From contig JAQXUQ010000009.1 of the NCBI GenBank assembly GCA_029224465.1, forward strand, positions 1-60,144: a stretch of DNA of 60,144 bases. The letters run 5' to 3'. A model generated the notes under the pieces. That model saw only the letters and a list, made by a program, of their open reading frames with translations, ran no database searches and had not been told where the DNA came from. Position 1 is the stretch's first letter; each line of letters starts with the position of its first letter. This DNA comes from Bacillota bacterium. Its GTDB lineage: Bacteria; Bacillota; Clostridia; Lachnospirales; Lachnospiraceae. Position numbers and translations under genes: made by a program. Positions 11,127-34,729 of this stretch are shown here, piece by piece.

Positions 11127-11654
11127 ATGAACCACAATAAAATTCTGTATCTGGTCCACGCGGCCGTCATTGCGGCTGTCTATGTTATTCTCACAATGCT
11201 TGCGGCAAGCTTCAATCTCGCAAGCGGCGCGATTCAGGTCCGCTTTTCCGAAGTTCTGACGATTCTTCCTTACTTCACACCTTCTGCTGTTCCGGGCGTT
11301 GTCATCGGCTGCCTGCTTTCAAACATACTGACAGGCTGCGCGCTGCCCGATATCATTTTCGGAACGTTTGCGACACTCCTCGGCGCGCTCGGCACCTACG
11401 CGCTTCGAAAGAACCGCTGGCTCGCGCCGGTTCCTCCGATTGTGGCAAACACGATCATCGTTCCGCTTGTACTGCGCTATGCTTACCATATTCCGGGAGC
11501 GCTCTGGTTTCTGATGGCAACCGTCGGCGCAGGCGAAGTTATTTCCTGCTATCTCTTCGGAGAGGTACTTCTCGGAGCGCTTCTTCCGTTCCGGCAGAAA
11601 ATCTTCGGCAGCGCGGAAACAGTATCCCGGAAACCCGGGACAGTCTCCCGCTGA
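11127..11654 (+). CDS. queT: QueT-family transporter (queuosine precursor uptake S component)
   Basis: Membrane substrate-binding component of an energy-coupling-factor transporter family thought to import queuosine precursors such as preQ1. The 175-residue protein is almost entirely hydrophobic, with about five or six membrane segments. It has the family-like segment GAIQVRFSEVLTILPYFTPSAVPG, quoted in part: AIQVRFSEVLTILPYF near residues 34-49, and a C-terminal GEVISCYLFGEVLLG. The ATG at 11127 was chosen over an upstream in-frame ATG because AAAGGAG precedes it and homologs start here. It is monocistronic, with its own promoter, a structured leader and a terminator. Confidence 0.88.
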   Translation: MNHNKILYLVHAAVIAAVYVILTMLAASFNLASGAIQVRFSEVLTILPYFTPSAVPGVVIGCLLSNILTGCALPDIIFGTFATLLGALGTYALRKNRWLAPVPPIVANTIIVPLVLRYAYHIPGALWFLMATVGAGEVISCYLFGEVLLGALLPFRQKIFGSAETVSRKPGTVSR

Positions 11655-11713
11655 CAGGGCACGCACAGGAAGCGCGTGTCCTTCATCAATAACATATTTA
11701 GGAAAATCCGTAC

Positions 11714-11741
11714 AGCCGGGGCCGTCCGCTCCGGCTTTTCT
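11714..11741 (+). terminator. Rho-independent terminator of queT
   Basis: AGCCGG (11714-11719) pairs with CCGGCT (11731-11736), followed by TTTTCTT. A second, weaker GC hairpin lies just after the stop codon (GGGCACGC / GCGTGTCC, 11657-11681). Confidence 0.65.
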
Positions 11742-11764
11742 TATGCTCTTCACCGGAAACCGGT

Positions 11765-13090
11765 CTATGGATTTCCGCTTTCTTCACCGGACGAAGGCAC
11801 TTGCGTGGATGCATCTGTCTCAGGCTTCTGCTGCCCGCCCGTCTCTTCCTGCTTCTGCAGCACTTCCTCTTCAAGAGGATTCTGCTCCTTTTCACCTGTC
11901 TCTTTATTCAATAGAAGTTCAACCTCAGAGCGCAGTTCTTCTACCTGTTTCATCAATGCATTCTGATTCTCCTCGATGCGCTGCTGTGACTGCGCAAGCT
12001 CATTCTGACGGTCCGAAAGTGCTCCGGAAAGATCCAGTATCTGTGCCGCCGTGGTCTGCAGCTGCTCCTGCGTCCTGCCGAACGCATCCTGCGAATCAAA
12101 GATGGCAGCCTGCAGCTGTGCCATCTCCTGCTGCCTATCCATGATGGTTTCCTGTTTTTCCATACTGTTCAGCTGCTGCTGTGAAATTGTCTGCTGCCCT
12201 TGCGAAAGCTCTGCCTGCCGCGCGACGGCCTTCTGTGCGCTGTCCTCCGCGAGCTTTTCCATCCGCTGCCCCGTTTCCGTGATGTTCTTCTGCGTTTGCG
12301 CGATGGCTTCCTGCGTCTTCTGTATGCCGGCGCCAAGTTCGCCGCGCTGCCCTTTAAGCAGGCTGCCGAGCTCTTCATCCGTTTCGGAGAGCGCCTTTTT
12401 CAGTTCTTCCGTCTCACTGCTCTGACTGTCCCCGGCCTCGGCAAGAAGGAGCTGTATCTGCTTCCGGATACCTTCCGCTGTCTGGTCCAGCTTCTTCTGC
12501 GTTTCCAGTGTTCTCTGATCCAGCGCCTTTCTGCGGTTTTCCTCTTCCTTCGCCGCCTTATCCGCTTCCGCCGCGGATTTCTTCCCTGCTTCCTTCATTT
12601 CTTTCTGCAGCGTATCCAGACCCTGAATGACACTGTCGAGACTCTGCGAAAGCTCCTCATTCGTGTTACTGCTGCCCTGACGGAAGGAATCAAGATTCTG
12701 CCTCATTGAAGTAACGGCAGCCGTCACCTTTTTATATTGTTCCGCGTCCTGTGAATGAGATTCTCCGCTTTGAACACTCCCGCTCCGGAGCGTACGGATA
12801 CTCTTCTCGATCACCGTCAGCTTTTCCTCAAGCTTCCTGTCACTCTCCGCGGCAAGGCTTCGCTGCGCCGCATCGCCTCGCAAGATGACAAAAAGAAGCG
12901 CCGCGGCTGCGGCTATACCGACGATCATCAGGGCAGCCGTGCGGAACAGGTAAGCGCGGGCAGCAGGATCCCGCGGAGCCTTTGCGGCAGCCGGCTGCTG
13001 CCCGGCGTAAAAGGTCTGTTCCTCCTTCTCCTGCTCTTCGTCTTCCTGATTGGCGTCCCGGAAATAGTTTAATAGATTACTAAGTGACAT
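11765..13090 (-). CDS. Membrane-anchored long coiled-coil protein of unknown function
   Basis: I do not recognise a named family. The 441-residue protein has an acidic/Gln-rich N-terminus with NLLNYFRDANQEDEEQ, then one hydrophobic segment at about residues 51-73 (AALMIVGIAAAAALLFVIL). About 300 residues of heptad-like Glu/Gln/Lys/Leu sequence follow, with no cysteine and recurring SQSQQ- and MEKQE-type patterns, and then an acidic, Pro/Ser-rich tail. The reading frame extends upstream, but the ATG with GGAGG seven bases before it is chosen. Orientation is probably N-in with the coiled coil outside, though the topology is uncertain. It could be a structural or division-associated protein. It is divergent from a small ORF and convergent with queT. 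Confidence 0.7.
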   Translation of the reverse strand: MSLSNLLNYFRDANQEDEEQEKEEQTFYAGQQPAAAKAPRDPAARAYLFRTAALMIVGIAAAAALLFVILRGDAAQRSLAAESDRKLEEKLTVIEKSIRTLRSGSVQSGESHSQDAEQYKKVTAAVTSMRQNLDSFRQGSSNTNEELSQSLDSVIQGLDTLQKEMKEAGKKSAAEADKAAKEEENRRKALDQRTLETQKKLDQTAEGIRKQIQLLLAEAGDSQSSETEELKKALSETDEELGSLLKGQRGELGAGIQKTQEAIAQTQKNITETGQRMEKLAEDSAQKAVARQAELSQGQQTISQQQLNSMEKQETIMDRQQEMAQLQAAIFDSQDAFGRTQEQLQTTAAQILDLSGALSDRQNELAQSQQRIEENQNALMKQVEELRSEVELLLNKETGEKEQNPLEEEVLQKQEETGGQQKPETDASTQVPSSGEESGNP

Positions 13091-25132: not shown

Positions 25133-26311
25133 TCAGTGATGGAACAGACGCAGTCCTGTAAAGCACATCACCATGTCATGGCTGTCAGCCGCAGCGATCA
25201 CGTTGTCATCACGCACGGACCCGCCCGGCTCCGCGACATATTTCACGCCGGATCGGAACGCCCGCTCGATATTGTCTCCAAACGGGAAGAAAGCGTCCGA
25301 GCCGAGAACTACATCGGTATTCCGGCTGATCCATGCCTTCTTCTCTTCCTTCGTAAAAACAGGCGGCTTTTCGGTAAACACAGCCTGCCATCTGCCGTCC
25401 GCGAGCACATCCTCGTACTCGTCGCCGATGTAGAGGTCTATCGCGTTGTCCTTATCCACCCGCTTGATGTCACCGCGGAACGGAAGGTTCAGTACCTGCG
25501 GCGACTGACGCAGCCACCAGTTGTCCGCCTTGCTGCCGGCAAGTCTGGTGCAGTGAATTCTCGACTGCTGGCCGGCGCCGATGCCGATCGCCTGCCCGCC
25601 CTTGACATAACAGACCGAGTTCGACTGAGTATACTTGAGCGTGATCATTGCGATCGCCATATCGTTGAGCTTGTCCTTCGGCAGATCCCTGTTCTTCGTT
25701 ACAATGTTCGAGAACATGGACGCGTCGATGACCGCATTGTTTCTTCCCTGTTCGAAAGTGATGCCGAAGACCTGCTTGTGCTCGACAGCCGCAGGCACAT
25801 AAGAAGGGTCCATCTGCAGCACACAGTAATTGCCCTTCTTTTTGGTCTTCAACAGTTCCAGCGCCTCCTCCGTATAACCTGGGGCGATGACGCCGTCCGA
25901 AACCTCTCTGTGAATTAATTTCGCGGTATCGAGGTCACAGGGATCGGAAAGAGAGACAAAATCGCCGAAGGACGACATTCTGTCGGCGCCTCTTGCTCTC
26001 GCGTACGCGCAGGCAAGCGGCGAGAGCTCTCCCATATCCGCTACCCAGTAAATCTTCGCCTCCACATCCGAAAGCGGAAGTCCGATCGCGGCTCCTGCGG
26101 GGCTGACATGTTTGAACGACGTGGCTGCCGGCATACCGGTCGCCCGCTTCAGCTCGCTGACCAGCTGCCAGCCGTTAAGCGCATCCAGAAGATTGATATA
26201 CCCCGGTCTTCCGTTCAAAACAGTAACCGGCAGATCAGAACCGTCCTCCATGAAAACTCTTGCCGGCTTCTGGTTCGGATTACACCCGTATTTAAGTTCC
26301 AGCTCGTTCAT
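25133..26311 (-). CDS. Stand-alone AICAR transformylase (C-terminal domain of PurH)
   Basis: Phosphoribosylaminoimidazolecarboxamide formyltransferase: transfers formyl from 10-formyl-THF to AICAR, the ninth purine step. The 392-residue protein aligns with the transformylase half of Pur[72 protein letters not shown] and [20 protein letters not shown]. The IMP-cyclohydrolase (MGS-like) domain is missing. The gene upstream encodes a separate cyclohydrolase. The ATG at 26311 has GGAGG six bases upstream; the frame is open further to 26362. Confidence 0.92.
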
Positions 26312-26324
26312 CATCTGCCTCCCG

Positions 26325-27044
26325 TCAATGATTCTTATTGACAATTCTGGATTCATACACACCGGTCTGAATGTCGATGAATCTGGTAAACAGGGATACC
26401 TTATTGTCCGCGTTCAGCGCTTCCCAGATTCTTCCGGTGAATATATCGATATTCTCCGTGAAGTCATCGGAAAGGGAGATGCCAAGCGGCTCTCCCTCAA
26501 AAGAGGGCAGCGGACTGCCGTCTCCCTGATAGGTACTGATAAAGTGCCCTGTTCCGCAAAGCGGCGCCTCATATGCGAAAGTGTAACGCAAAACCGAGGA
26601 AGGATCACCGTGATCGCTCTTCAAGATAGAAAGCGCGTAATTGTAAGATCCGTTCTCCACATGCAGCACCCCCGAGATCCGCGGTGTATAATTCGGCGCG
26701 TCCGGCTCAAACGTGCGGCTTCGAAGGCTCTGTTCAAATGTCATCTGCCTGTCCAGACCTTCGTAGATCGTATCTGTCTGATCGCCGTTCGTGACGATGG
26801 TCTTGTTGCCAAGCACACGCACCGGCGCGTAAATGATCAGACTCGGATCCTCAAGCTTCGACGGATCAAATGCCTTCGTGCGGATGCCCTCTCCGTCTTC
26901 CACAAAGACACGGTTACGGCTGTTCGCGCTGCGGCCCATGATAAAATACGCCGCGACGGCTTTTGTTCCATCCGCCGTTCTTCCGATCAGGATGCCTCTG
27001 CCCGGATATGAGGTTTCCCGAAGATGCTTCTCGATATCTGCCAT
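26325..27044 (-). CDS. IMP cyclohydrolase, PurO-like (archaeal-type) family
   Basis: Closes FAICAR to IMP, the last step of purine synthesis, using a fold unrelated to the PurH N-domain. The 239-residue protein shows the family pattern [20 protein letters not shown] near residue 13, [56 protein letters not shown] and [16 protein letters not shown]. It sits 13 bases before the stand-alone transformylase, so the two enzymes together replace bifunctional PurH. First gene of the long operon that runs to sigH and the hydrolase. Confidence 0.85.
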
Positions 27045-28533: not shown

Positions 28534-28566
28534 CTAAAGAAAAGGGAAAACAATTTTACCCGAAAG

Positions 28567-28602
28567 AAAAGACCCGCAAGCCCGAAAGCTCACAGGTCTT
28601 TT
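28567..28602 (-). terminator. Terminator of the opp operon
   Basis: AAAAGACC and GGTCTTTT form the base of a hairpin with an internal GAGCTTTCGGGCTT mini-stem, about 55 bases after the oppA stop on the minus strand. The A/T arms provide the U-run. Confidence 0.75.
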
Positions 28603-28658
28603 CCATATTCAGATCGCGGCAGACGCCGCAGATCCGAAAAGATACTGTATGAATGCGA

Positions 28659-30503
28659 TCACTTCTTTGTTGCAGGATCTACACCGAACTGGCAGTCGTT
28701 GTTGCCGGAATCGGATGTCCACATCTCAAGCATGTTGATCGGGTCATCATAGTCGGCAAGCCAGCCTTCACGGGCAACGTCAAAGTTGCCCTGCTTACGG
28801 TCATTCAGGAATGTCTGCCAGTCTTCAACGGAGATATCCATTGTGATGCCTACAGCGGACAGATCCTGCTGAATTGCCTGCGCAATGCCTTCGTGGCCGG
28901 TACCCTGGTTTGTAAGGTAGTTGATGTGCAGAGGTGTGTCAGCAGACAGCTGGTTGTTGTCATCGAACTTGAAGCCTGCGCTCTTGAGCAGTTCGATTGC
29001 CTTCGCTGTGTTGCCTTCCTGATCTGCGGACAGATCCTTATAATATCCGTCGTCTACGGGGAATGTATAATCCTTGTCGTTCTCCTTGAATACGCCGCCG
29101 TGGCCGTCAGCCATGCCTGCAGGGATGAAGGATGTTGCAGCCTGCTGCTCTGTCTGGCCGATCGTGTCGATGATGTACTGGCGGTCAATCAGCAGAGAGA
29201 TAGCTCTTCTCATCGCGTTCGCCTGATCAACAGTCTTGCCGTCGAACATCTTGGAGTTTACGTTGAAGCCGACATAGTATGTGCCCATGTTCGGGATAAC
29301 GTGGAAATCGGGCTTATCCTTCAGATTCTGGATTTCGCCGTTCGGAACGGTATCCGCGTAGTCAAGGTCGCCGGACTGATATGCGGCAAGGATAGCCGTA
29401 TCATCAGCGGAAAGCATGAAGTCGAGCTCGTCAACACTTACATTGTCAGCATCATAGAAGTTCGGGTTCTTGACATAAACCATGGACTCGTTGTGCTTCC
29501 AGGACTTTAAAGTGTAAGCGCCGTTGGATACGAAGCCGGCCTCGGATGCCCATGCACCGGGGTTGCTTCCGTCCGGATCAGCAGCTTCAACAGCAGCCTT
29601 CTGAACAGGCATGAATACCGGGAACGCAAGAAGGCTCATGATGTACGGGCAGGGAGCGGTCAGCGTGAAGGTAACCGTATTGTCATCGGGTGCAGAGCAG
29701 ACCGGTGTGCCGTCATCATTCTTCGCGAATACATCAAACAGATAAGCGTAGTCGGAAGCTGTCTTCGGATCTGCCGCTCTCTGCCAGGAATAGATGATAT
29801 CGTTCGCGTTCAGAGCGGAACCGTCGGACCACTTGAGACCTGTCTTCATCTTAACCGTGTAGGTCAGGTTGTCATCGGAAATTTCCGGATCACCGTCCGC
29901 GAGAGCGGGAACAACCTTGCCGTCAGCATCGTAGGTATACAGACCGACGAAGGAGTTTGCAGCAAGCGCAGCGCCGTCAACCGTGCTGTTCAGCGCGGGA
30001 TCAAGGTGATCCGGCTCGGAAGCGAGGTTGATGTGCATCTTGTCGATTGCCTTGCCGTCCTTCTTGGTGTACATGAAGTACTTTGTACCGAATACGGTAG
30101 CGAAGTCACCGGAGAAGCCTTCCTTCTCAAGATACAGATCGTTGTAATAGTAGATCGGAAGAACAGCGCCGGTTGCCATCAGCATATCCTCAGCCTGATG
30201 CATCTTCGCTTCACGGTCTTCCAGATCCGTGTCTGTGCGGATGTCGCTGATGAGCTTGTCATACTCGGACCAGTCCGGGGCAGCTTCATTATAGGAAGAA
30301 GCCGTGAACTTAATCTTCGACGCCCAGTCGTCATCCGATGCAGCCGCTTCGGTTGTCGCAGCTGCCGCTTCTGTCGATGCAGCCGCGGCTTCAGTCGAAG
30401 CAGCCGGAGCAGAGGCAGGTGCCGAAGCAGCGCTGCCGCAGCCAGCTACAACGCCTGCAACCATAGTGGAAGCAAGGACGATAGCTAATGCTTTCTTTTT
30501 CAT
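28659..30503 (-). CDS. oppA: Oligopeptide-binding lipoprotein, circularly permuted OppA-type
   Basis: Extracytoplasmic substrate-binding component of the adjacent peptide importer. Signal peptide with lipobox VVAGC (Cys22), then an Ser/Thr/Glu/Ala linker (23-56). Residues 66-148 are what normally ends an OppA: SEYDKLISDIRTDTD, MHQAEDMLMATGAVLPIYYY and FGTKYFMYTKK. From about residue 152 the normal N-terminal region begins (ASEPDHLDPALNSTVDGAAL) and continues through LKWSDGSALNANDIIYSW and MGTYYVGFNVNSKMF. It reaches DVAREGWLADYDDPINMLEM, then stops at NNDCQFGVDPATKK where the YDKLI segment would normally follow. The order is therefore permuted with no obvious loss. AGGAGG precedes the ATG. 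Confidence 0.9.
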   Translation of the reverse strand: MKKKALAIVLASTMVAGVVAGCGSAASAPASAPAASTEAAAASTEAAAATTEAAASDDDWASKIKFTASSYNEAAPDWSEYDKLISDIRTDTDLEDREAKMHQAEDMLMATGAVLPIYYYNDLYLEKEGFSGDFATVFGTKYFMYTKKDGKAIDKMHINLASEPDHLDPALNSTVDGAALAANSFVGLYTYDADGKVVPALADGDPEISDDNLTYTVKMKTGLKWSDGSALNANDIIYSWQRAADPKTASDYAYLFDVFAKNDDGTPVCSAPDDNTVTFTLTAPCPYIMSLLAFPVFMPVQKAAVEAADPDGSNPGAWASEAGFVSNGAYTLKSWKHNESMVYVKNPNFYDADNVSVDELDFMLSADDTAILAAYQSGDLDYADTVPNGEIQNLKDKPDFHVIPNMGTYYVGFNVNSKMFDGKTVDQANAMRRAISLLIDRQYIIDTIGQTEQQAATSFIPAGMADGHGGVFKENDKDYTFPVDDGYYKDLSADQEGNTAKAIELLKSAGFKFDDNNQLSADTPLHINYLTNQGTGHEGIAQAIQQDLSAVGITMDISVEDWQTFLNDRKQGNFDVAREGWLADYDDPINMLEMWTSDSGNNDCQFGVDPATKK

Positions 30504-30651: not shown

Positions 30652-31632
30652 TTACTTGTTCCAGCAGGCAACCATGTGGCCGTTTCCTCTGTCGGTCAGC
30701 GCCGGCATCTCCCGCGCGCACTGTTCGGTCGCGTAACGGCATCTTGTGCGGAACGGGCAGCCCGAAGGCATGTGCAGCGGAGAAGGAACATCGCCTTCCA
30801 GCACGATACGCTTGGACTCTCTTGCCGTCTTCGGGTCCGGAATCGGAACCGCGGACAGGAGGGAAAGCGTGTACGGATGAATCGGATTGCTGTTCAGCTC
30901 ATCCGCGTCCGCAATCTCGACCAGCTTCCCGAGATACATAACGGCAATCCTCTGGGAAATATGATGTACAACCAGAAGGTCGTGCGCGATGAACAGATAC
31001 GCAACGCCGAGCTTTTCCTGCAGCTCCTCGAACATGTTGATGACCTGCGCCTGAATCGATACGTCCAGCGCGGAAACCGGCTCGTCGCAGACGATGAACT
31101 TGGGATCAACCGCAAGCGCTCTGGCAATGCCGATTCTCTGTCTCTGTCCGCCGGAGAACTCATGCGCGTATCTGGTTGCGTGCTCGGCGTTGAGGCCGAC
31201 CAGCTGCATCAGATCCATGATCTTGTCATGCCGCTCTTTCTTGTTCGCATACAGATGATGGATGTCGAGAGGCTCTCCGATAATGTCTTCCACCGTCATT
31301 CTGGGGTTCAGCGACGAATACGGGTCTTGGAACACCATCTGCATTTCCTTGCGGAGTCTGTGGATATTCTTGTCTGTAACAAGCTCTCCGTTAAAATAAA
31401 ACTCGCCGCCGGTCGGCTTGTAAAGGCGAAGGAGTGTACGGCCGACCGTTGTTTTGCCGCAGCCGGACTCTCCTACCAGTCCCAGGGTCTCTCCAGGTTT
31501 GATATTGAAAGACACGCCGTCAACCGCTTTGAGAGGTACGGATGTGAACAGGCCTGTTTTGACCGGAAAATACTCTTTTAAGTCATGAACCTCTACGAGG
31601 TATTCGCTATTCTTCTTTGTGTTCTGTGCCAT
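30652..31632 (-). CDS. oppF: Oligopeptide ABC transporter ATP-binding protein OppF-like
   Basis: One of two nucleotide-binding subunits energising peptide import. The 326-residue protein has Walker [21 protein letters not shown] near residue 53, [17 protein letters not shown] (Q-loop), [15 protein letters not shown], Walker [16 protein letters not shown], and the H-loop AHD. A C-terminal Cys-rich oligopeptide-transporter motif follows ([14 protein letters not shown]). Its start overlaps the oppD stop by one base (TAATG). It is last before oppA in the operon. Confidence 0.93.
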
Positions 31633-32705
31633 TACGCGTCTGCCTCCCGGGTTCCCGCAGCTTCCGCCGCCTTTTCTTCTTCATAAGCCTTCCTGACATT
31701 CAGCCAGCATGCCGCGTAATGTCCGTCCGGCATCTGCATCTCTTCGGGCTTTTCATCCAGGCAGATTTTCATGGCGTTCTCGCATCTGGGGCAGAACGCG
31801 CATCCCTTCGGCATCGCCAGCATGTTGATCGGCGTGCCTCCGATCGGGACAAGCTTCTCCTTCATGTTGTTGACATTCGGAATTGATCTTAGAAGACCCT
31901 TGGTGTACTCATGGCAGGGTCTATAGAAGATGTCGTCCGCGGTTCCTCTCTCGCAGACACGTCCGCCGTACATGACGATGATCTCGTCGCACATGGACGC
32001 AATGACGCCGAGGTCGTGTGTGACCAGAATAATTGCCATGCCAAGCTGTTTCTGCAGATCCTTCATGAGCTCGAGAATCTGCGCCTGAATTGTAACATCA
32101 AGCGCGGTTGTCGGTTCGTCCGCGATCAGAATATCCGGCTCGCAGGCAAGCGCCATGGCGATCATGACACGCTGCCGCATGCCGCCCGAGAGCTCGAACG
32201 GATACTGCTTGATCCGGCTTTCCGGCTCATTGACGCCGACCATCTCGAGAAGCTCGATCGCACGCTTATTCGCGGCGGATCTTGATTTGTATTTCGTGTG
32301 AAGCTGCAGTGCCTCGCGCAGCTGCCAGCCTACTGTAAACGTGGGATTGAGCGACGTCATGGGATCCTGGAAGATGATCGAGCATTTATCTCCGCGGAAA
32401 TCCTGCATCTGCTTTTTGGAATAATTCAGGATGTTCTCACCCTTGTATAGGATTTCGCCTTTGACGACCTTGCCGGTCTCCGCGAGAATCTGCATGATCG
32501 AATACGCTGTGACGGATTTGCCGGAGCCTGACTCGCCTACAACACCGAGGATCTTGCCCTTCCTGAGATTGAAGGAAACACCGTTCACAGCCTGCACTTC
32601 ACCGGAATCCGTGAAGAAGGATGTATGTAAATCGCGGACGGAAAGGATCGCGTCCTCCTCGTTCTCTTTTACTTTCTGCGCTGCGTTTTTCTCTGTAACT
32701 GCCAT
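31632..32705 (-). CDS. oppD: Oligopeptide ABC transporter ATP-binding protein OppD-like
   Basis: Partner ATPase of OppF. The 357-residue protein has GVVGESGSGKSVTAYSIMQI (Walker A), SIIFQDPMTSLNPTFTV, FELSGGMRQRVMIAMALACE, ILIADEPTTALDVTIQ and the C-terminal CAFCPRCENAMKIC cysteine cluster. The N-terminus is a charged extension (MAVTEKNAAQKVKENEED). ATG at 32705 with AAGGA six bases upstream is preferred over an in-frame GTG at 32726. It lies 17 bases after oppC. Confidence 0.93.
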   Translation of the reverse strand: MAVTEKNAAQKVKENEEDAILSVRDLHTSFFTDSGEVQAVNGVSFNLRKGKILGVVGESGSGKSVTAYSIMQILAETGKVVKGEILYKGENILNYSKKQMQDFRGDKCSIIFQDPMTSLNPTFTVGWQLREALQLHTKYKSRSAANKRAIELLEMVGVNEPESRIKQYPFELSGGMRQRVMIAMALACEPDILIADEPTTALDVTIQAQILELMKDLQKQLGMAIILVTHDLGVIASMCDEIIVMYGGRVCERGTADDIFYRPCHEYTKGLLRSIPNVNNMKEKLVPIGGTPINMLAMPKGCAFCPRCENAMKICLDEKPEEMQMPDGHYAACWLNVRKAYEEEKAAEAAGTREADA

Positions 32706-32722
32706 TTCGGTTCCTTTCTGAA

Positions 32723-33802
32723 TCACTGTTTGAGCTTCGGGTCGAATGCGTCACGCATCGCGTCGCCGATCAGGTTGAACGCCAGAACGATCAGGATGAT
32801 CGCCACCGCGGGGAAAACAAGCTTCCACGGATAGGACTGCATGCCTGAACGGGCCGCGTTCGCCAGCGAGCCGAGGGACGGCATCGGCAGAGCGACGCCA
32901 AGGCCGATAAAGGACAGATACGACTCTGTGAAAATCGCGGCGGGAATCTCCTGCGCCGTCGTGATGATAATAACGGAAAGGCAGTTCGGCAGAATGTGTT
33001 TCCAGATGATTCTCCCGGAAGAAGCGCCCATGGACTTCGCGGCAAGAACGTACTCGTTCTGTTTGATTCCGAGAATCTGTCCGCGGACAAGTCTTGCCAT
33101 GCCTACCCAGTATAACAGTCCGAAAACAATGAACATTGAAACCATGTTCGTTCCGAGCTTGCCGATGACGGGCAGCTTCGAGAAATCCATCGTCTCCTTG
33201 AAGACAACGGCCAGAAGGATGATGATCAGGATGTCGGGCAGCGAATAAATAATATCGACAATCCGCATCATGATCAGATCCGTCCGCCCTCCCATGTAAC
33301 CTGATATCGCGCCGTACAGCGTTCCGATAATGAGGACCATCATGCTCGCGAACACGCCGACAAGGAAAGAAACCCGCGCGCCGTAAACAACACGGATGAA
33401 ATAGTCACGGCAGAGCTCGTCGGTTCCCATGATATGCGGAAAAACCTTCACATTGTACTTCTGCATGTACTGCTGTTCTCTGGGAGAATACTCAAACGGC
33501 TTTAAGTTGGCCGCCTGTTTGTCTCTTACGCCTTCGACCGTGATGATGCCGTCATAGCTGTAAGGAACAACCATCGGTGCGAAAACCATGATCAGGATCA
33601 CCAAGAGCAGGATGATCATGGACATGACTGCGAGCGGATTCTTCATAAGCCGCCGGCAGCCGTCTTTGAAGAACGTTGTGGACTCGGCCATAACGTCCTG
33701 CTGTTTCTTCTCTTCCGCGGTTGCCTTCTCGAATTTCGACGGATCCACATGGAGGCTGAGCGCGTGCTTCTTCGGTGCGGGAATATCATAATTCGGTTCC
33801 AT
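32723..33802 (-). CDS. oppC: Oligopeptide ABC transporter permease OppC-like
   Basis: Transmembrane subunit forming half of the peptide channel. The 359-residue protein begins with a cytoplasmic, charged region of about 50 residues. TM1 follows (MSMIILLLVILIMVFAPMVV), then an external loop with MGTDELCRDYFIRVVYGARV, and five further helices. The coupling region (EYVLAAKSMGASSGRIIWKH) matches the EAA-type motif of the family, and FTESYLSFIGLGVALPMPSL follows. It lies 15 bases after oppB. Confidence 0.93.
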   Translation of the reverse strand: MEPNYDIPAPKKHALSLHVDPSKFEKATAEEKKQQDVMAESTTFFKDGCRRLMKNPLAVMSMIILLLVILIMVFAPMVVPYSYDGIITVEGVRDKQAANLKPFEYSPREQQYMQKYNVKVFPHIMGTDELCRDYFIRVVYGARVSFLVGVFASMMVLIIGTLYGAISGYMGGRTDLIMMRIVDIIYSLPDILIIILLAVVFKETMDFSKLPVIGKLGTNMVSMFIVFGLLYWVGMARLVRGQILGIKQNEYVLAAKSMGASSGRIIWKHILPNCLSVIIITTAQEIPAAIFTESYLSFIGLGVALPMPSLGSLANAARSGMQSYPWKLVFPAVAIILIVLAFNLIGDAMRDAFDPKLKQ

Positions 33803-33817
33803 TCAAATACCTCCGGA

Positions 33818-34729
33818 TCAGTCTAACTGGATTCTGGGATCGATCAGCTTGTAGACAAGGTCGCTGATCAGGTTCATCGCAACCATGATAACGGCAAGGA
33901 AAATCGTGACACCCATGATCATCGTGTAGTCGCGGTTCGTGATGGAGTTGACGAACTCCGATCCGAGGCCGCCGATGGTGAAGATGTTCTCGACAACAAG
34001 GGAGCCTGTCAGGATCGCTGCCGTCAAAGGTCCAACGTAAGTAATGACCGGGATCAGCGCGTTCCGGAGCGTGTGGACAAAGATGACCTTGACTGGCTTA
34101 ACGCCCTTCGCTCTCGCAGTGCGGACATAGTCCTGTCCGAGCGCGTCCAGCATCGAAGTCTTCGTAAGACGCGTGATTGTCGCCATCGGCGAAAGCGCGA
34201 GTGAAATGACCGGAAGGATGTACGTGTGCGACGTGGTGCTCCATACCGGTACAATCTTGAGCTGAATACAGAAAATCAGCAGCAGGAACGAAGCCATGAC
34301 GAAGGACGGCATTGCCGTGAAAAGAGTGACGAAAAAGATGATGATATGATCCGGCCACTTGTTGCGGTTCAAAGCAGCGACGCAGCCGAGTACAACGCCG
34401 AAGATCAGTGCTACAACGATTGCCATCAGTCCGAGCTTCGCGGATACGGCAAAACGTGTGCGGATGGTGAGCGCGATATCACGGCCGTTCTTGAGCGAAA
34501 CGCCGAAATCACCGTGCATGATGTTTTTCATATAATTAATAAACTGTACGCCAACCGGCTTGTCGAGTCCGTACCTCTCGTTCAGTACCTGCATAACCGC
34601 TTCCGATTTCGCCTTTTCGCCGTTGAACGGTCCGCCGGGGATCGCGTTCATGGCAAAGAACGTAATGAAGCAGATCAGGAACATGGTAATTACTGCCAGT
34701 ATGACTCTCTTTACGATGTACTTAGCCAA
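33818..34729 (-). CDS. oppB: Oligopeptide ABC transporter permease OppB-like
   Basis: Other half of the peptide channel. The 303-residue protein has TM1 at about residues 9-28 (ILAVITMFLICFITFFAMNA), the N-terminal PGGPF motif, and about six helices. The coupling segment is QDYVRTARAKGVKPVKVIFV, followed by HTLRNALIPVITYVGP. It starts with TTG, not ATG: the TTG is preceded by GAGG eight bases upstream and begins LAKYIVKRV, as homologs do. First gene of oppBCDFA. Confidence 0.92.
   Translation of the reverse strand: MAKYIVKRVILAVITMFLICFITFFAMNAIPGGPFNGEKAKSEAVMQVLNERYGLDKPVGVQFINYMKNIMHGDFGVSLKNGRDIALTIRTRFAVSAKLGLMAIVVALIFGVVLGCVAALNRNKWPDHIIIFFVTLFTAMPSFVMASFLLLIFCIQLKIVPVWSTTSHTYILPVISLALSPMATITRLTKTSMLDALGQDYVRTARAKGVKPVKVIFVHTLRNALIPVITYVGPLTAAILTGSLVVENIFTIGGLGSEFVNSITNRDYTMIMGVTIFLAVIMVAMNLISDLVYKLIDPRIQLD

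Follow-up and report, generated by a model that had tools for sequence, protein, structure and literature searches.

Evidence for a circularly permuted OppA-type peptide-binding lipoprotein in a Lachnospiraceae opp operon and for repeated switching of its block order

Natural circular permutations of proteins are usually seen as rare, old, one-way events. One described case among binding proteins is TpMglB-2 (Tp0684) of Treponema pallidum, a circularly permuted lipoprotein that keeps glucose binding and was proposed as 'Type Ic/Cluster Bc'; its authors raised tethering as a possible reason for the permutation (PMC4990184). Here we analyze a gene at positions 28659..30503 (minus strand) of a 60,144-nucleotide stretch of DNA from a Bacillota bacterium of the Lachnospiraceae (contig JAQXUQ010000009.1 of assembly GCA_029224465.1; hereafter the window), which very probably encodes the circularly permuted peptide-binding lipoprotein of an OppBCDF importer. 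A first-pass annotation of the sequence had proposed such a permutation and knew of no such arrangement for Opp proteins; likewise, none was found for OppA among the papers listed on circular permutation of OppA, oligopeptide-binding and extracellular solute-binding proteins, most subscription papers lying outside its coverage.

The 614-residue window protein matched the SBP_bac_5 model (PF00496; E = 1.7e-86) with 291 bits (cut-off 32.4), over profile positions 1-367 of 368 and residues 196-602 without a break. Because this Pfam 'Middle' model gives a single unbroken match in both block orders of the permutation found here (type I, breakpoint at profile 441/443), routine annotation would overlook the rotated order, a warning that domain searches can conceal such rearrangements. 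The swapped order appeared in phmmer alignments to PDB chains. Residues 147-604 matched chain positions 13-450 of B. subtilis OppA (8are) and residues 79-143 matched positions 455-519; with DppE (8ay0), residues 155-600 matched positions 23-442 and residues 69-132 matched positions 441-504. Against a profile of 33 ordinary-order OppA proteins, mostly from other families (the outgroup profile), the unaltered window protein gave two matches, residues 67-147 to profile 420-500 (56.4 bits) and residues 157-606 to profile 3-429 (427.0 bits). When residues 66-148 were placed after residue 607, one continuous match of 482.8 bits covered profile 3-500, as the first-pass annotation had expected; control scores reached at most 432.0 bits with 50 shuffled segments and 431.8 bits with 50 random 83-residue pieces. 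A profile of nearer ordinary relatives gave 95 and 664 bits with the unaltered protein, 769 bits after the move and at most 669 bits in controls. The C-terminal segment of OppA is present by both profiles (95 bits at residues 70-148 with the nearer one, 56 bits at residues 67-147 with the outgroup one). Each block occurs once, the order is rotated and the native ends are linked by 1-5 residues, which is a circular permutation; relative to the ordinary SBP_bac_5 order, which is the family norm, the window protein is a variant. The segment first proposed, residues 66-148, is indeed the moved C-terminal block and is not duplicated, with a profile-supported extent of about 67-148. The chain does reach its end region at GNNDCQFG, where it had been said to stop, and then carries seven further residues, VDPATKK (28662..28682).

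From its front, the protein comprises a lipoprotein signal peptide (lipobox VAGC with Cys22, by eye) with a low-complexity linker rich in Ala, Glu and Thr (residues 1-61, 30321..30503; pLDDT <50 at residues 1-57), the moved native C-terminal part (residues 62-148, 30060..30320; nearer-profile positions 442-520 at residues 70-148; pLDDT 91-96), the joint between native C-end and native N-start, seen as the gap between profile end and profile start (residues 149-154, 30042..30059), and the native N-terminal and middle part (residues 155-607, 28683..30041; nearer-profile positions 2-444). In one relative, L083 (L and G numbers are our handles for loci and genomes), the linker that separates the signal peptide from the permuted OppA is a very long Glu/Ala/Thr repeat, lying before residue 303 of the open reading frame (ORF).

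The structure prediction suggested by the first-pass annotation yielded a confident AlphaFold2 model (pLDDT 84.6, pTM 0.82), which matched known folds in order over residues 151-609 only. No other fold class occurred among the 50 matches shown in each of two listings, and the 50 of one listing bear OppA/DppA/NikA/AccA-type binding-protein names; with the cluster assignment that we assume for these proteins, this makes a cluster B (Type I) fold less likely. Among 36 permuted proteins, D584 (28752..28754, aligned with Asp419 of Salmonella OppA, 1b05) is invariant, and R569 and R578 are nearly so. We take their Salmonella counterparts, Asp419, Arg404 and Arg413, to be peptide-contact residues, Asp419 presumably holding the peptide amino end. 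By the sequence criteria tested, the window protein appears functional. The last ~80 OppA residues directly follow the signal peptide and linker; a few residues connect this piece to the native N-terminus, and the chain ends in the loop where the piece formerly continued. If we take domain III of OppA to span residues 271-486 of 517, the moved piece would comprise the end of domain III and the final strands of domain I. The folded protein would be an ordinary two-lobed OppA, closing on peptides and delivering them to OppBC, with a changed tether, the lipid anchor entering domain III instead of domain I.

Several observations weigh against this picture. When the window protein alone was the query, its second stretch aligned weakly to some PDB chains, with independent E values of 0.011, 1.1e-6, 4.8 and 2.7 in four alignments (the last two to 1b05 and 3o9p), and the matter is decided by the profiles. 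The NCBIfam OppA equivalog (PRK15104) was missed, with a score of 229 against a cut-off of 947 bits; the window protein is OppA-like and lies outside that equivalog. Structure aligners gave in-order matches alone, and the packing of the moved segment was judged by pLDDT and pTM only. A lipobox-like motif before the segment was absent from 13 of the 73 distinct genes with the window's permuted order, so the moved anchor may not hold for all permuted OppA. These 13 (L079, L080, L081, L085, L087, L089, L090, L091, L094, L123, L143, L147 and L149) are possibly not lipid-anchored; the front of L080 is cut. Finally, as for a duplication intermediate, no protein with blocks in the order C-N-C was found in 211 loci scanned, in keeping with the single copy noted above, and no vestigial C-segment was found in the sequence that follows 90 permuted gene entries (counted with duplicates), where the only convincing segment copies belonged to the next tandem permuted genes and other matches had E ≥0.77. 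Such tandem pairs of permuted oppA follow oppF in L086 (3929-7602) and L122 (5914-8175; second copy cut by the contig end). Tandem duplication with partial loss is a plausible DNA-level route, in which tandem permuted genes would give material for either direction via fusion and partial loss.

The new ends lie at a characteristic loop. Across 92 permuted gene entries (counted with duplicates), profile end and profile start lie 1-5 residues apart at the joint, and 68 of the 73 permuted genes stop one K/R past QxG; a tail like VDPATKK was shared only by the window gene and a 98% identical relative (VDPSAKK). At the break, ordinary OppA proteins have mostly a short turn among those listed, e.g. 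NNDAQWSNAEYD or QWSN, whereas ordinary relatives of the permuted clade have an expanded loop, e.g. QLGKDSTSSAPDW; in those nested within the clade it mostly begins Q[LF]GK and in some G[VLF]NP. Since the loop is likewise long in the next ordinary group outside the clade, beginning Q[LF]GKG, its expansion seems older than the permutation. Judged from these sequences, the expanded loop seems to be a permissive site for new ends. A relation of the window tail GVDPATKK to the loop GVNPT of the ordinary protein L148 was considered and left unproven.

Block order was called for ORFs with an N-block score of at least 150 bits and both blocks found, 108 in all (69 permuted, 39 ordinary, duplicates included), of which 10 duplicates were dropped later. 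Set A1 held 35 of 41 permuted loci plus the window and set A2 held 22 of 25 ordinary loci; L071 and L119 were left out for stops in the ranges used, and the other omissions were cut or near-identical. The ordinary-order relatives, ~53-72% identical (N block or best match), occupy the same place after oppF. Among loci longer than 6 kb, all four oppBCDF genes were present at ≥40% identity in 33 of 38 with permuted and 23 of 25 with ordinary order, and six of the seven loci without the full set begin at a contig end. On the oppA tree (71 OppA, 536 columns; drawn from 99 clustered rows by omitting 18 that were ordinary and distant and 10 that were permuted), the order label required five changes, at least four of them forced by well-supported branches. 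On the oppBCDF tree (58 rows, 1330 columns; 58 of 69 loci after near-copy removal) it required four, at least three of them forced. With either tree, 0 of 200 bootstrap trees had one change. A single permuted clade was rejected on the oppA tree (228 log units worse, approximately unbiased (AU) test p = 7.9e-35) and on the oppBCDF tree (p = 1.7e-83); also rejected were a single clade of the 18 nested ordinary genes on the former (215 log units, p = 8.1e-5) and of the six ordinary genes on the window's side on the latter (p = 9.1e-5). As a single origin is rejected on both trees, the order has switched at least three times at the same loop. The one datable event that the first-pass annotation implied does not hold: besides these switches, two further breakpoints occur in other Firmicutes.

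In a two-state Markov (Mk) model with an ordinary root, allowing both directions (lnL -21.6) gave a better fit than gain only (lnL -27.5). The base of the clade was permuted with probability 1.00, and on the lineage toward the window's subclade the ordinary state was preferred at the 36-row node (0.79) and the 22-row node (0.81). The history was likely one old permutation followed by reversals and perhaps by renewed permutation, including that of the window gene. Three points limit this reading. The lineages diverging earliest in the clade carry only permuted genes in the best tree, but their branching order is weakly supported; the AU tests are two-tree comparisons for trait-defined groups; and the end residue common to 68 of the 73 genes suits a single origin better, several reversals alone fitting as well.

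This last point is better accommodated by a single permutation at the clade base followed only by independent reversals, without re-permutation, which is nearly as good an account as the mixed history and which we regard as distinctly possible. The permuted first lineages of the 62-row clade and its permuted base in the Mk fit agree with it, and on the oppBCDF tree four reversals cost the same number of changes as the mixed history. Set against it are the permuted L159 (absent from the oppBCDF tree), which falls inside an ordinary group in the oppA tree (10-row group 100/100; exact place 84/32), the position of L052 and L117 beside the ordinary L108 and L148 in the same tree, and the ordinary state preferred at the two nodes named above. 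Many independent permutations from ordinary ancestors, favored by the long exposed loop, would draw on the contrast between that loop and the short turn of most OppA listed, and on the two other breakpoints, which show that OppA tolerates permutation. This history would need many gains at nearly one residue and its gain-only fit is 6 log units worse, and we consider it improbable. Whole-operon horizontal transfer of ordinary and permuted alleles, which would leave the label uninformative on switching, might be suspected from metagenome-assembled genome (MAG) labels of several families within the clade (L090, L125). The operon tree is independent of host phylogeny, so the interleaving of the label on that tree counts against transfer and makes it very unlikely.

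Among gut bacteria the permuted form is conserved and widely distributed. The order recurs in many independent assemblies, as the first-pass annotation had asked to be checked, including a 98% identical gene in another assembly (L062). Within the same genus, joint-spanning permuted order was found in 27 of 62 genomes at E ≤1e-30 (broken in G016), 18 had matches but none across the joint and 17 had no match; within the family it was found in 23 of 299 sampled genomes at E ≤1e-60 (G331 with an internal TAG), and 56 more had only non-joint-spanning matches. Going by record titles, some permuted loci belong to Lachnospiraceae and others to MAGs assigned to Christensenellaceae, Clostridia, Clostridiales and once Erysipelotrichaceae; the block of L068 (Firmicutes bacterium CAG:791) is identical to that of G041, a genome of the same genus. 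In Lachnospiraceae and neighboring groups the permutation is of long standing. Compared with L062, dN/dS was 0.05 for the moved segment and 0.04 for the remainder; compared with L013, the values were 0.16 and 0.13. Misassembly, a frameshift or gene decay, as might be feared with relatives that are mostly MAGs by title and include two broken ones, can hardly be the explanation given the independent assemblies, the intact 600-residue ORF in the single-contig genome G251, the permuted oppA of the cultured Acetitomaculum ruminis DSM 5522 (L118) and the low dN/dS. The permuted gene is under purifying selection and is neither artefact nor pseudogene. The broken copies are L162/L205 (G331, a single-contig genome), with an in-frame TAG, and L021 (G016), with a frame change near residue 555. 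L135 (G051:C1) and L137 (G057:C57) each encode a second, paralogous permuted OppA, and the 19-20 kb fetched for them contained no match to oppBCDF.

Permutations of OppA at two other breakpoints were also found. In type II, the chain begins at profile ~256-271 and stops at ~258-260 (break ~260/265). Genome G037 has two such genes (L130:4463-6193 and 11198-12940), each followed by its own oppBCDF, and the same permutation occurs in G782 (L224), which has another family code; these were the two with joint-spanning matches among 146 genomes searched. In type III, proteins start at profile ~352 and end at ~343 (e.g. L197-L200 and L230-L239), and the examples stand before opp transporter genes. Of 398 genomes sampled across the phylum, 10 had a joint-spanning type III match at E ≤1e-80, with four family codes; two of the ten are single-contig genomes, one of which (G722) has a TGA inside the match. 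The profile test of block order was run on four of the type III genomes. Four joint-spanning matches first taken for type I proved to have another breakpoint in the profile test, and a protein with an odd start in G118 (109-607, L201) was not flagged as permuted. For types II and III, one PDB chain each among the matches listed was matched as two swapped stretches. The new ends fall near residues 279 (type II) and 352 (type III) in OppA numbering, which places all three breakpoints in domain III by the boundaries assumed above; with a chance probability of ~0.07, this shared location is only suggestive. In the type III locus L200, no lipobox could be seen by eye in the signal peptide, there is an LptF/LptG gene in the vicinity and the next gene is LptD-like by eye, with no Pfam family matched; the missing lipobox and the LptF/LptG gene hint at a diderm host.

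Taken together, we lean toward the view that OppA permutation is ongoing and reversible, with several switches at one loop in one orthologous operon, a window gene that has possibly been re-permuted, and at least two other breakpoints in Firmicutes. All three would move the N-terminus, and the tether where present, to domain III. If this is true, the shift may tune docking of the binding protein on the transporter, and permutation uncouples the position of the tether from the fold in a family of major importance for nutrient uptake. Because orthologues ~53-72% identical occur in both orders in the same slot, natural pairs are available for testing what permutation costs, what it brings and by which route it arises.

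In the window, the permuted oppA belongs to the operon oppB-oppC-oppD-oppF-oppA as its final gene, all on the minus strand: the permeases oppB (BPD_transp_1, 33818..34729) and oppC (OppC_N, 32723..33802) and the ABC ATPases oppD (31632..32726) and oppF (30652..31632), both with oligo_HPY, all four identified by Pfam. The oppA ORF has an ATG start and a good GGAGG ribosome-binding site (by eye), and a terminator-like hairpin (gaaaagacc...ggtcttttc, by eye) lies 3' of it (28566..28603, minus strand). Elsewhere, at 25133-27044, an IMP_cyclohyd gene overlaps an AICARFT_IMPCHas-type gene, perhaps replacing a single bifunctional purH.

With B. subtilis OppA and DppE and Salmonella and E. coli OppA (SBP_bac_5, cluster C by our assignment), the window protein shares the family by profile, a matching predicted fold over the in-order part, the peptide-contact residues and the operon partners. 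It differs from them in that its last ~80 residues are moved to the front, the loop at the break is longer, and the N-terminus and anchor enter what we take to be domain III. The type II and III proteins likewise have swapped OppA blocks and adjoining opp transporter genes, at different breakpoints. TpMglB-2 resembles the window protein as an ABC binding protein that is naturally permuted and carries a lipid anchor, and it has relatives among Gram-positive gut bacteria. Unlike the window protein, TpMglB-2 is a cluster B sugar binder in which the counterparts of the first three EcMglB strands are found close to the C-terminus, and one permuted group is described in the accessible part of that report (PMC4990184), in contrast to the repeated switching in OppA here. 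Relative to known permuted binding proteins, what is unusual here is a permuted OppA whose order keeps changing.
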